Shown piece by piece: positions 22,772 to 26,517 of a stretch of DNA of 64,000 nucleotides. Source of the stretch: Acidobacteriota bacterium (lineage in GTDB: Bacteria > Acidobacteriota > Vicinamibacteria > Vicinamibacterales > UBA8438); NCBI GenBank assembly GCA_009838525.1, contig VXRJ01000018.1, positions 335,087 to 399,086 of the forward strand, in the 5' to 3' direction. Both the position numbers and the translations under genes were made by a program. The notes under the pieces were generated by a model. It had not been told where the DNA came from and ran no database searches. It saw only the letters and a program-made list of their open reading frames with translations. Numbering within the stretch: the first letter of the stretch is position 1; every line of letters begins with the position of its first letter.

Positions 22772-23851
22772 ATGCCTGACGACAGCACAACGAAGAGGAC
22801 AACGCTGCTTGTGACGCTGGCGGCGTTGAGCGTGGCGGCGGGTGCGGCCTGCGGCGGGGGCGGAGGGGGCGAACCGGCACCCGCGATGGAGGAGTCGGCC
22901 GACGGCGCGCCGGTGACCGAACCCGCCGGCGCGGGCAGCATTCTGCGGGTCGACTCGCGTCTTGACGCGCTGGTGCCGACCGGCGCGCAGATCGAGAAAC
23001 TGGCGGACGGCTACGTCTTCACCGAGGGGCCGGTTTGGATCCGGAGCGAGTCACGCCTTCTGTTCTCCGATGTCCGGGCCAACGCCATCCATGAGTGGTC
23101 GGAAGAGGCAGGCGCCAGCCCCTTCATCGATCCGGTCTTCGAAGGCGATGCGGAGGGGCTCCGGTCGCTCTCGTCGAACGGACTCACGCTCGACGCCGAG
23201 GGCCGCGTAGTCATCTGCGAGCATGGCAACCGGCGCATCTCGCGGCTCGAGCCGGACGGCACGCGGACCACGCTGGTGGACAACTTCGAGGGTAGCCGCC
23301 TCAACAGTCCGAACGACGCGGCGTACGGCTCGGACGGATCGCTCTACTTCACGGATCCGCCCTACGGGCTGGAGGGTCTGGAGGAGTCGCCACTGCGCGA
23401 GCTGGACTTCAACGGCGTTTACCGCCTCCACCCGGACGGCGAACTGGAGCTTCTGGTGCGGGATCAGAGCCGCCCGAACGGCATCGCCCTCTCACCCGAT
23501 GAATCGGTCCTGTACGTTGCCAACTCCGACGAGAACCAGAAGGTCTGGTTCGCGTACGACCTGGACGAGAACGGCGCGAGCAACGGCCGCATCTTCTACG
23601 ACGTGAACGATCAGACGGCCGAGGGCGGGGCCGACGGCCTGAAGGTTGACCGCGCGGGTCACCTCTTCGCCACCGGCCCGGGAGGCGTCTGGGTCTTCGC
23701 GCCGGACGGCAGCCACCTCGGCACGATCATGCCGGACGAGGTGCCGGCCAACGTCGGCTGGGGCGACGACGGGCGTACGCTCTATATGACGGCGCGGACC
23801 GGCCTCTATCGCATCGCCCTCTCCACGCAGGGCGTTCTCCCAGGACCATGA
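22772..23851 (+). CDS. SMP-30/gluconolactonase-like lipoprotein
   Basis: 359 residues, lipoprotein signal with the lipid cysteine at about residue 27 (VAAGAACGGG). The rest is a six-bladed SMP-30/LRE propeller: YVFTEGPVWI, SSNGLTLDAEGRVVICEHGNRR, LNSPNDAAYGSDGSLYFTDPPYG, SRPNGIALSPDESVLYVANSD. The glutamate of TEGPVW and the Asn/Asp residues in LNSPND and RPNGIAL are the metal ligands of this family. Likely a lactone hydrolase anchored in the periplasm. GGGAG precedes the ATG. Its stop overlaps the start of the first epoxide hydrolase (ATGA), a sign of coupled translation. Confidence 0.88.
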   Translation: MPDDSTTKRTTLLVTLAALSVAAGAACGGGGGGEPAPAMEESADGAPVTEPAGAGSILRVDSRLDALVPTGAQIEKLADGYVFTEGPVWIRSESRLLFSDVRANAIHEWSEEAGASPFIDPVFEGDAEGLRSLSSNGLTLDAEGRVVICEHGNRRISRLEPDGTRTTLVDNFEGSRLNSPNDAAYGSDGSLYFTDPPYGLEGLEESPLRELDFNGVYRLHPDGELELLVRDQSRPNGIALSPDESVLYVANSDENQKVWFAYDLDENGASNGRIFYDVNDQTAEGGADGLKVDRAGHLFATGPGGVWVFAPDGSHLGTIMPDEVPANVGWGDDGRTLYMTARTGLYRIALSTQGVLPGP

Positions 23852-25179
23852 AGAATACAGAAGCTTCGCTCACCGACCGGTGCGCCGGCCTCCAGGCCGG
23901 CATTCTCCATTGCGCCGGCATTCTGATTATCACGGCGCTCGCCACGGCATGCGCCGGCCAACCGCCGCCGGTCCCCGCCGCCGGCTCCGGCCCCCCGCCC
24001 GCGATGGAGCTCCCAGAGAACACCACCGGCGATCCGGAAGCGATCCGTCCGTTCACGATCGACGTTCCCGACGCCGTGCTCGACGACCTCCAGGCACGTC
24101 TCCACCGCACCCGCCTGCCCGATCAGCTACCGGGCACGGGCTGGGACTACGGCACGGAGCGCTCCTATCTGGACGAGTTGCTCGTCTACTGGCGTGATGA
24201 ATTCGACTGGCGCGTCCAGGAATCGATGCTGAACGAGTTCGATCAGTACCTCACCACGATCGACGGTCTCGACATCCACTTCATTCATCAGCGGTCTCCC
24301 CACGAGGACGCCCTCCCGCTCCTCATCACCCACGGCTGGCCCGGCTCGGTCATGGAGTTCCACAAGATCATCGGGCCGCTCACCGATCCGACCGCGTACG
24401 GCGGCGATGCGGCCGACGCGTTCCATGTCGTCGCACCGTCGATCCCCGGATACGGCTTTTCCGACAAGCCGGCCGAGCCCGGCTACCACCCGGAGAAGAT
24501 GGCCGAGCTGTTCGGCAAGCTGATGGGGCGGCTTGGCTACGAGCGGTGGGGCGCGCAGGGCGGCGACTGGGGGAGCAGCATCAGCCGCTGGCAGGCGGTC
24601 CACCACCCGGACCGGGTGGTGGGCGTCCACCTGAACATGGTGTCGGCGCCACGCCCCGACGTGGACGACCCGGAGGCGGGCGTGCCGCCGGACGAGCTGG
24701 CCCGGACGCGCGAGCGCCAGGAAGCCTTCGCGGACGAGCGGGGCTACAGCAACGTGCAGGGGACGAAACCGCAGTCCCTCGGCTACGGGCTGAACGATTC
24801 GCCGGCCGGCCTCGCCGCCTGGATTGTCGAGAAGTTCCACACCTGGTGCGACTGCAACGGTGACGTAGAAAGCCGCTTCACGAAGGACGAGCTGCTGACG
24901 AACGTCACCATCTACTGGGTGACGCAGACGATCACGTCGTCGACGCGAATCTACTACGAGTCACGCCGCGCGCCGCGCCGCGGCACCGGCTACATCGAGA
25001 CGCCGGTCGGCGGCGCCATTTTTCCGAAGGAAATCACCATCCCGCCCCGCGCGTGGGCCGAGGCGGCGTACAACCTGGTGCATTGGACCGAGATGCCCGA
25101 GGGGGGACACTTCGCCGCCCTGGAGCAGCCGGACCTGCTGACGGAGGACGTCCGGGCGTTCTACCGGGGGTTGAGGTAA
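23848..25179 (+). CDS. epoxide hydrolase lipoprotein, paralogue 1
   Basis: 443 residues. Lipoprotein-like signal ending LATACAGQ (cysteine near 35). The EHN domain of microsomal-type epoxide hydrolases follows (IRPFTIDVPDAVLDDLQARL, RLPDQLPGTGWDYG), then the alpha/beta-hydrolase core: oxyanion hole HGWPGS, nucleophile aspartate in GGDWGS, lid tyrosine region, and base histidine in EGGHFAALEQP. Family chemistry opens an epoxide to a diol through an aspartyl ester. An exported, lipid-anchored member is unusual because most are cytosolic or ER-bound. Start overlaps the preceding stop. The signal peptide region is built from a palindromic repeat (see 23881). Nearly the same gene follows 6 bases later. 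Confidence 0.88.
   Translation: MKNTEASLTDRCAGLQAGILHCAGILIITALATACAGQPPPVPAAGSGPPPAMELPENTTGDPEAIRPFTIDVPDAVLDDLQARLHRTRLPDQLPGTGWDYGTERSYLDELLVYWRDEFDWRVQESMLNEFDQYLTTIDGLDIHFIHQRSPHEDALPLLITHGWPGSVMEFHKIIGPLTDPTAYGGDAADAFHVVAPSIPGYGFSDKPAEPGYHPEKMAELFGKLMGRLGYERWGAQGGDWGSSISRWQAVHHPDRVVGVHLNMVSAPRPDVDDPEAGVPPDELARTRERQEAFADERGYSNVQGTKPQSLGYGLNDSPAGLAAWIVEKFHTWCDCNGDVESRFTKDELLTNVTIYWVTQTITSSTRIYYESRRAPRRGTGYIETPVGGAIFPKEITIPPRAWAEAAYNLVHWTEMPEGGHFAALEQPDLLTEDVRAFYRGLR
23881..23925 (+). repeat. palindromic GC element inside signal-peptide codons (EH1)
   Basis: An 8-base inverted repeat, GCCGGCCT and AGGCCGGC with CC between (23884-23901), followed by a second GCCGGCATTCT. It encodes residues of the signal peptide (CAGLQAGILHCAGIL). 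The same backbone appears at 25210-25262 in the paralogue, where 12 extra bases are inserted, so length differs while frame is kept. Confidence 0.55.
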
Positions 25180-25185
25180 GACAAC

Positions 25186-26517
25186 ATGCATTCATGGTAC
25201 GCCCCTCGGTGCGCCGGCCGATGCGTCGGCCTCCAGGCCGGCATTCGCCGGTATGCCGGCCTTTTGCTCGTCGCCTCCATCGCCGCCGCGTGTGCTTCCG
25301 GGCCGCCGCCAACGGGCGAAACACCGTCTGGACCCCCACCCGCCATGGAACTTCCCGCCAACACGACCGGCGACCCCGAGGCCATCCGCCCGTTCACGAT
25401 CGACGTGCCGGCCGCAGTCCTGGACGACCTCCGACTGCGCCTGGAGCAGACGCGGCTGCCCGATCAACTGCCCGGCACGGGCTGGGACTACGGCACGGAG
25501 CGCGCCTATCTGGAGGAGTTGCTCACCTACTGGCGTGATGAATTCGACTGGCGCGCCCAGGAGACGATGCTGAACCAGTTCGATCAGTACCGCACGACGA
25601 TCGACGGCCTCGACATCCACTTCATCCATCAGCGGTCGCCTCATGAGGATGCACTGCCGCTCGTCATCACGCACGGCTGGCCCGGCTCGATTCTGGAGTT
25701 CCACAAGATCATCGGGCCGCTGACCGACCCGACCGCGCACGGCGGCGACGCGGCCGACGCGTTCCACGTGATTGCGCCCTCGATTCCGGGTTACGGCTTC
25801 TCCGACAAGCCGACCGAACGGGGCTATCACCCGGAGAAGATGGCGGAGATCATCGGAGAACTCGTGGAACGGCTCGGCTACGAACGCTACGGCGTCCAGG
25901 GTGGCGACTGGGGGAGCATCATCAGCCGCTGGCAGGCGGCGCAGCATCCGGATCGGGTCGTGGGCGTTCACATCAACATGGTTACCGCGGGTCCGCCGCC
26001 TGGCGCCGACCCGACGGAAGGCGTGCCGCCGGAGGAAATGGCCCGGTTCCAGGCGAGGAACGAGTTCTGGCAGGGTGAGCAGGCCTACCTGAACCTGCAG
26101 GGAACCAAGCCGCAGACGCTCGGTTACGGGCTGAACGACTCCCCGGCCGGTCTCGCCGCCTGGATCGTCGAGAAGTTCCACACCTGGTGCGACTGCAACG
26201 CGGATGTCGAGAGCCGCTTCACGAAGGACGAGTTGCTGACGAACATCACCATTTACTGGGCGACCCAGACGATGACGTCGTCGACGCGTATCTACTACGA
26301 GTCGCGGAGGGCGCCCCGTGGAACCGGCTACATCGAGGTGCCGGTCGGCTGCGCCATCTTCCCTGGGGAGATCTTCCTCCCGCCGCGCGCATGGGTGGAG
26401 GCGTCGCACAACGTCACACGCTGGACCGAAATGCCCGAAGGCGGACACTTCGCCGCGCTTGAGCAGCCGGAGCTCCTCACCGACGACATCCGCGCCTTCT
26501 TCCAGGACCTCCGGTAG
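25186..26517 (+). CDS. epoxide hydrolase lipoprotein, paralogue 2
   Basis: 443 residues, very similar to the gene just upstream along its whole length, so a tandem duplication. It keeps every catalytic feature: HGWPGS, GGDWGS with the aspartate nucleophile, and EGGHFAALEQP with the histidine. The signal peptide ends SIAAACASG (cysteine near 36). Differences cluster in the cap region after GGDWGS (for example GPPPGADPTEGVPPEEMARF), where substrate choice is made in this family, so the copies may have divided substrates between them. Six bases separate it from paralogue 1 and 36 from the cupin gene. Confidence 0.88.
   Translation: MHSWYAPRCAGRCVGLQAGIRRYAGLLLVASIAAACASGPPPTGETPSGPPPAMELPANTTGDPEAIRPFTIDVPAAVLDDLRLRLEQTRLPDQLPGTGWDYGTERAYLEELLTYWRDEFDWRAQETMLNQFDQYRTTIDGLDIHFIHQRSPHEDALPLVITHGWPGSILEFHKIIGPLTDPTAHGGDAADAFHVIAPSIPGYGFSDKPTERGYHPEKMAEIIGELVERLGYERYGVQGGDWGSIISRWQAAQHPDRVVGVHINMVTAGPPPGADPTEGVPPEEMARFQARNEFWQGEQAYLNLQGTKPQTLGYGLNDSPAGLAAWIVEKFHTWCDCNADVESRFTKDELLTNITIYWATQTMTSSTRIYYESRRAPRGTGYIEVPVGCAIFPGEIFLPPRAWVEASHNVTRWTEMPEGGHFAALEQPELLTDDIRAFFQDLR
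25210..25262 (+). repeat. palindromic GC element inside signal-peptide codons (EH2)
   Basis: Expanded version of the element at 23881. The CGGCCT/AGGCCG inverted repeat is at 25227-25240, preceded by an extra 12 bases containing CCGATGCGTCGG and followed by GCCGGTATGCCGGC. It falls in codons for residues 9-26 of the precursor (CAGRCVGLQAGIRRYAGL). Confidence 0.5.

Follow-up and report, generated by a model that had tools for sequence, protein, structure and literature searches.

A RAYT-associated REP family in an acidobacterial genome, with copies in frame in the predicted signal peptides of two tandem epoxide hydrolases

The closest described systems are the REP elements that go with a RAYT (REP-associated Y1/HUH transposase, or TnpAREP) as REPtrons and occur as BIMEs or REPINs. 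Short hairpins whose 5' foot is conserved, many copies, mostly extragenic locations, inverted pairs and one RAYT flanked by copies are the hallmarks of these systems, and all of them recur in the family described here. In-frame REP copies in unrelated genes, at N-terminal and linker positions, are described in PMC3733652 and PMC6006769. Unlike the known systems, however, the present family has the foot GTNC (GANC in its relatives) instead of GT[AG]G, its RAYT has W-M where the E. coli protein has W94-Q95, and it appears repeatedly in the n-regions of signal peptides. A foot other than GT[AG]G, a hairpin-flanked gene and a high copy number are also found with TnpAREP subclass 2.6 and the class 3 REP-like repeats (foot CnGA, e.g. 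in Solibacter usitatus), and class 3 is partly acidobacterial, according to the account in PMC6006769; the GTNC or GANC foot and the strong stem set the present elements apart from these.

Other palindromic repeats are known within coding sequences. Rickettsia palindromic elements (RPEs) lie in frame within conserved proteins, but are given as 105-146 bp in length in PMC2229807, as against 24-nt units and a RAYT here. The Yersinia RU-2/YPAL element in the signal peptide of YPO1552 is about 168 bp, with one such gene described, compared with five proteins in the present case. Borrelia lipoprotein genes carry IS605-type stem loops at their 3' ends, as reported in PMC2775950; this is a different case. 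REPs within genes, and one signal peptide derived from a repeat, have been published before; new are the family with the GTNC foot and the fact that it recurs in signal peptides. Among the papers listed in a search of open-licence PMC articles, none deals with a GTNC REP family or with REPs that recur in signal peptides.

The window, i.e. the whole 64,000-nucleotide stretch of acidobacterial DNA that was analysed, carries two tandem epoxide hydrolase genes, here termed EH1 and EH2 (Table 1). A first-pass annotation of the letters had noted a palindrome in frame within the N-terminal signal of both, and so it proves: the 18-nt palindrome GCCGGCCTCCAGGCCGGC is perfect at 23884-23901 in EH1 and has 1 mismatch at 25225-25242 in EH2. 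With ≤2 mismatches allowed there are 3 matches here, one being the opposite strand of the EH1 site, where shuffled sequences lead one to expect 0.04. The 12-base, frame-keeping expansion that the annotation had seen in the second gene is also present. Its flanking copies stand in part: a half copy follows the REP unit in EH1 and a degenerate one in EH2, but 20 of 100 shuffles also give a match to TGCGCCGGCATTC, so that the EH1 half copy by itself does not go beyond chance. The palindromic element was rightly recognized as real, and what was missed is its identity as a RAYT-associated REP. The explanation that we hold, with good confidence, is that such a REP came to lie in frame in the signal of an epoxide hydrolase ancestor, that the gene was then duplicated, and that the added codons of the n-region are near neutral.

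Table 1. Features of the tandem epoxide hydrolases (window positions) and other genes with REP codons before a hydrophobic stretch (contig and position in the genome)
Feature	Position	Strand	Remarks
Epoxide hydrolase EH1, host gene	23848..25179	+	ORF 443 aa; Pfam EHN and Abhydrolase_1
EH1 N-terminal signal of 35 codons, from the start codon through the lipobox-like Cys	23848..23952	+	By eye; AGGA 5' of ATG
REP unit in EH1, GGTGCGCCGGCCTCCAGGCCGGCA, reads (R)CAGLQAG(I)	23879..23902	+	Same as G000:C18:358965-358988
EH1 half copy TGCGCCGGCATTC	23911..23923	+	Alone within chance
Epoxide hydrolase EH2, tandem copy, host gene	25186..26517	+	ORF 443 aa; Pfam EHN and Abhydrolase_1
EH2 N-terminal signal of 36 codons, from the start codon through the lipobox-like Cys	25186..25293	+	By eye
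EH2 extra 12-nt unit GGTGCGCCGGCC	25208..25219	+	Directly 5' of GATGCGTCGGCC-TCCA
REP unit in EH2, GATGCGTCGGCCTCCAGGCCGGCA	25220..25243	+	
EH2 degenerate half copy GGTATGCCGGCCTTT	~25250-25264	+	By eye; aligns with EH1 half copy
Cytochrome c-like lipoprotein	C4:67730		REP in signal n-region; GAGGAGG then GTG upstream of REP
M16-peptidase lipoprotein	C38:93369	-	AGGAGG then GTG upstream of REP; GTG inside REP is also a possible start
Ankyrin-repeat protein	C34:226429	-	n-region MRSLVRRRPRHPGRCAGVYGRCAGVHAGI mostly REP-like units in a row, by eye

A dispersed REP family and its RAYT gene

How widespread is the palindrome? The genome to which the window belongs (G000; 4.29 Mb, 38 contigs, 96.85% complete) holds 96 exact copies of the 18-mer, and the reversed pattern gives 0. 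The 24-nt pattern GGTBCGCCGGCSTCCASGCCGGCA, at ≤2 mismatches, is found at 161 places, with 0 for the reversed control. The element is therefore not confined to the two hydrolases, a doubt that the annotation itself had raised.

The palindrome belongs to a REP family whose foot is GTNC. Its consensus, GGT[GCT]C-GCCGGC[CG]TCCA[GC]GCCGGC-A, comprises a 5' foot GGTNC, a 7-bp GC-rich stem, a 4-nt TCCA loop and a 3' A; a lone unit folds at -16 kcal/mol (z -2.44), and the consensus has no stop codon in any of the six frames. Borders are sharp in the 154 hits that have ≤2 mismatches to the 18-nt core and lie in 73 merged stretches of 534,387 bases: the foot has G in 147, G in 144, T in 140, then G in 111, C in 29 or T in 14, and finally C in 150 of the 154, i.e. 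GT[GCT]C and not the canonical GT[AG]G, and the 3' A is present in 129. The stem pair beside the loop covaries (C-G 112, G-C 38). Tandem Repeats Finder gave no array at the element.

Gene context was read for the 139 hits that fit the 24-nt pattern (15 were dropped), which cover 139 of the 161 copies, the other 22 lying outside the stretches; gene calls came from a simple custom caller, with genes scoring <20 ignored. The copies are mostly intergenic (107, against 29 within a called gene and 3 with partial overlap); of 20,000 positions drawn at random from these stretches, 6.2% are intergenic. By type of gap, 49 are convergent, 48 unidirectional and 8 divergent, the gaps available being 75, 246 and 74. 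Neighbouring hits ≤120 bases apart, taken from all 154, are tail-to-tail in 18 cases, head-to-head in 2 and in the same orientation in 27.

A search of the genome gave a single Y1_Tnp match, in a gene that scores above the cut-off of NF047646 REP_Tyr_transpos (89.4 vs 80 bits). Nine 24-nt units lie within ~1.6 kb of this RAYT, seven upstream on the + strand and two downstream on the - strand, and the closest copies on both sides are ~0.15 kb or less away. The gene and its flanking copies are a REPtron with its REPs, and the family has probably been spread by this single RAYT. The place of the HUH motif in the RAYT alignment is occupied by MPNHVHV, which we take to be that motif. On the 3' side of the gene (L032:5615-5700, contig C14), tandem degenerate half-palindromes GTGGGGAACGTTGAGGCCGGCGCACC adjoin the REPs.

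Residues W94, Q95, E100, H101 and R104 of the E. coli RAYT contact the foot, as described in PMC6006769. The foot-contact segment has W-M in 11/11 loci of the present RAYT clade, W-Q in 14/18 more distant RAYT loci and W-H in genome G031 (L135); with its W-M, the RAYT of G000 departs from the guide-reading W-Q of the canonical subclasses. From these alignments, W-M would seem to go with the GTNC/GANC foot. A change of foot in the REP is reported in PMC8266576 to have moved the cleavage site of one RAYT, and the way in which REP foot and RAYT residue change together offers a specific prediction on guide reading by RAYTs.

Related REPs and RAYTs in other genomes

The exact 18-mer is present in 0/27 genomes of the same family and in 21/193 genomes of the class. 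Besides G000, more than one exact copy is found only in genus g100, which belongs to another order (2-18 copies in 7/8 genomes). A RAYT search of 192 genomes gave, among the matches listed, identities of at least 50% only in f18, the family of g100 (53-61%, long matches), and in G031 (50%); six same-family genomes give matches of ≤35% identity, again among the matches listed. The related-REP pattern GGWNCGCCNNNNTYCANNNNGGCA occurs at 119 places in G000, at 18-281 in each of the 8 g100 genomes, at 114 in G078 and at 12 in G031; it has 0-2 places in five same-family genomes, and the reversed control gives 0 in all 17 genomes. REPs of the relatives have the foot GANC, and their stem letters vary with pairing mostly kept (GCCGGTCTCCAGACCGGC, GCCGCTCTCCAGAGCGGC and GCCACTCTCCAGAGTGGC, among the matches listed).

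REP type and RAYT lineage mostly travel together across orders. G077 is the exception: GGWNCGCCNNNNTYCANNNNGGCA is absent from this genome although its RAYT is 55% identical, and other hairpins flank the gene. Was the system transferred horizontally, or was it lost in places? Both are possible. A scan of wider genome contigs for the exact 24-mer gave one record with one match (VXMF01000032.1, Terriglobia bacterium SB0661_bin_30), in a collection from which records of close genomes may be omitted, and of 13 plasmid records found, the five that were listed match the enzyme part only.

Copies within genes and the reading frame

The 29 intragenic copies read mostly as GAPASRPA or a variant of it (16); 3 are of the CAGLQAGI type, to which EH2 adds a fourth, 2 are of the VRRPPGRH type and 8 lie on the opposite strand. 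Hosts of internal copies include DnaE, GltX, Lhr, a siroheme-synthase-like protein, ThyX and PurH, and in GltX, Lhr, the siroheme-synthase-like protein and PurH the copies fall between Pfam matches. Further intragenic copies are N- or C-terminal. GltX provides a comparison with empty sites: an array of three REPs over 90 nt corresponds to a net 31 extra residues relative to 11/11 relatives (L170: 33 less 2).

Do such copies respect the reading frame? The spacing between a REP and the 12-nt unit that comes next upstream is a multiple of 3 in 18/19 cases inside genes and in 24/60 outside (one-sided Fisher p = 1.5e-5), with the proviso that units of one array are not independent and that the EH2 copy, counted among the 107 intergenic ones since the caller starts EH2 downstream of it, was moved inside by hand. 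The sole exception inside genes is a spacing of 37 in the siroheme-synthase-like gene. Full-unit neighbours in one orientation show the same tendency, with 5/5 inside genes and 6/18 outside. Because the unit has no stops, this bias is not forced by an open frame alone, and selection for frame is the simplest reading of it. The intragenic spacing in multiples of 3 thus indicates that copies inside genes are probably translated. The annotation's suggestion that the palindrome can insert or expand in frame is supported by its 161 copies, by its presence in other genes and by this spacing. REPs are mostly regarded as extragenic DNA, and the spacing test separates the copies within genes from the others; one REP family can be traced from the surroundings of a transposase-like gene to an essential tRNA synthetase and on to export signals.

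Two further observations concern individual hosts. The REP in DnaE (L001:2-2254, contig C2) lies inside the HHH_6 match, and the Rickettsia conorii DnaE gene also has a REP, as noted in PMC3733652. REPs at the extreme 3' ends of a BrkB-like gene (L054:2994-3857) and a glycosyltransferase gene (L033:3042-4406) code for the C-terminal residues before, or as far as, the stop.

REP codons in signal peptides and the origin of the epoxide hydrolase element

The N-terminal sequences MKNTEASLTDRCAGLQAGILHCAGILIITALATAC (EH1) and MHSWYAPRCAGRCVGLQAGIRRYAGLLLVASIAAAC (EH2) have the palindrome in frame after the start codon and ahead of a hydrophobic stretch that closes with a lipobox-like Cys. The codons of the element make up the n-region, and the EH1 half copy gives the first residues of the hydrophobic part. 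N-region, hydrophobic core and lipobox Cys were recognized by eye, and the lipoboxes, LATAC and IAAAC, are atypical. Past the first 200 alignment columns the genes are 81% identical in nucleotides, and they have the same length despite the 12-nt extra of EH2, other indels compensating. An SMP-30/gluconolactonase-like gene (window 22772-23851), with a lipoprotein-like N-terminus of its own, overlaps the EH1 start (ATGA).

A search of the genome for the element, the check that the annotation had proposed, favours it and adds the cytochrome c-like and M16-peptidase lipoproteins and the ankyrin-repeat protein of Table 1, in which REP codons precede a hydrophobic stretch and no clear later start is seen by eye. 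By hand count, 5/11 host genes having an N-terminal copy carry REP codons in a signal n-region. At some other copies a start codon lies downstream of the REP, which may there be untranslated.

Might this apply to EH1 and EH2 as well, with the true start further down and the REP as mRNA leader? Many N-terminal REPs are perhaps extragenic for this reason, as PMC3733652 remarks, and some copies in G000 do have the start codon after the REP. Both hydrolases have a further-down ATG (PPAMELP), where the gene caller placed the start of EH2. A start at PPAMELP would, however, remove the hydrophobic stretch that most epoxide hydrolase relatives show after their start (by eye). The EH1 start is supported by the ATGA overlap with the upstream gene and by AGGA, and in EH1 the interval from REP to hydrophobic core holds no ATG, GTG or TTG. 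In the cytochrome c-like and M16 genes a strong ribosome-binding site followed by a GTG lies ahead of the REP; this and the frame-keeping spacing inside genes also speak against a leader, and we consider it unlikely.

A hairpin kept near the 5' end as an RNA or DNA structure, e.g. to slow translation, with the coding incidental, would suit the stable fold of a lone unit. The 5' regions, however, are not clearly more structured than shuffles (EH1 z -1.32, EH2 z -1.02), so that a strong structure of the leader RNA is unsupported; one stem pair of the EH2 unit is broken on the foot side, and spacing by 3 is not needed for a structural role. This explanation appears very unlikely. Slightly less credible still is the annotation's proposal that the signal arrived together with the element, its codons and half copies being recruited for export as a signal module. 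Five proteins with REP codons in the n-region, one of them (the ankyrin protein) with an n-region built mostly of consecutive REP-like units, might be taken in its favour, but the hydrophobic cores and lipoboxes are not REP sequence, and the 25 epoxide hydrolase relatives have N-termini, signal-like in most, without the element; the proposal is unsupported. Chance GC-rich sequence, or likeness through gene duplication alone, might account for the half copy by itself and is ruled out, to near certainty, for the element by 161 copies vs 0 reversed and 96 exact 18-mers vs 0.

The REP has reached signal peptides as it did other tolerant places. Under the preferred explanation, 24-nt units spread by the RAYT would have landed mostly between genes, and the stop-free unit would have survived inside genes where the frame was kept. 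In the ancestor of the epoxide hydrolases a copy would have settled, with the frame intact, downstream of the start codon and ahead of the signal peptide's hydrophobic core; duplication of the gene would have followed, the two genes would have diverged, and EH2 would have gained the 12-nt unit or EH1 lost it. The REP codons presumably lengthen the n-region, a tolerant place, with a probably near-neutral effect. The signal-peptide cases constitute natural material on how freely n-regions take foreign codons.

A broader generalization is offered tentatively, at somewhat less than even confidence: the GTNC-foot family, whose 24-nt unit amounts to 8 codons, may repeatedly have become protein, with the GAPASRPA frame in hydrophilic linkers and tails and CAGLQAGI mostly in signal n-regions, with 12-nt half units expanding in frame, so that the palindrome serves as spacer or signal extension, and with the RAYT change from W-Q to W-M going with that of the foot from GT[AG]G to GTNC.

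How did both hydrolases come by the element? In the 25 relatives there is no match to the core at ≤2 mismatches from 300 nt before to 200 nt after the alignment start, and the best match near their starts has 3 mismatches (L100 and L102). The element common to EH1 and EH2 would be explained most simply by one insertion before the duplication. The two genes are sisters in a tree of 26 sequences with the signal removed; since this grouping is weak (84/66), two separate insertions, or gene conversion, are also possible.

Two loci deserve mention beside these. Upstream of the epoxide hydrolase relative at L100, in genome G004, is another palindrome, GCAGGCCTGAAGGCCTGCGCCACAC, of which similar fragments are seen by eye near L101 and L102, perhaps a further REP family in a sister genus. 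At L070 in G000 (C34:233939-234022, minus strand), a secreted protein is preceded by three successive REPs at intervals of 30 nt; the 3' A of the last REP is the A of the ATG (GCCGGC-ATG), and the REP may here supply the start codon.
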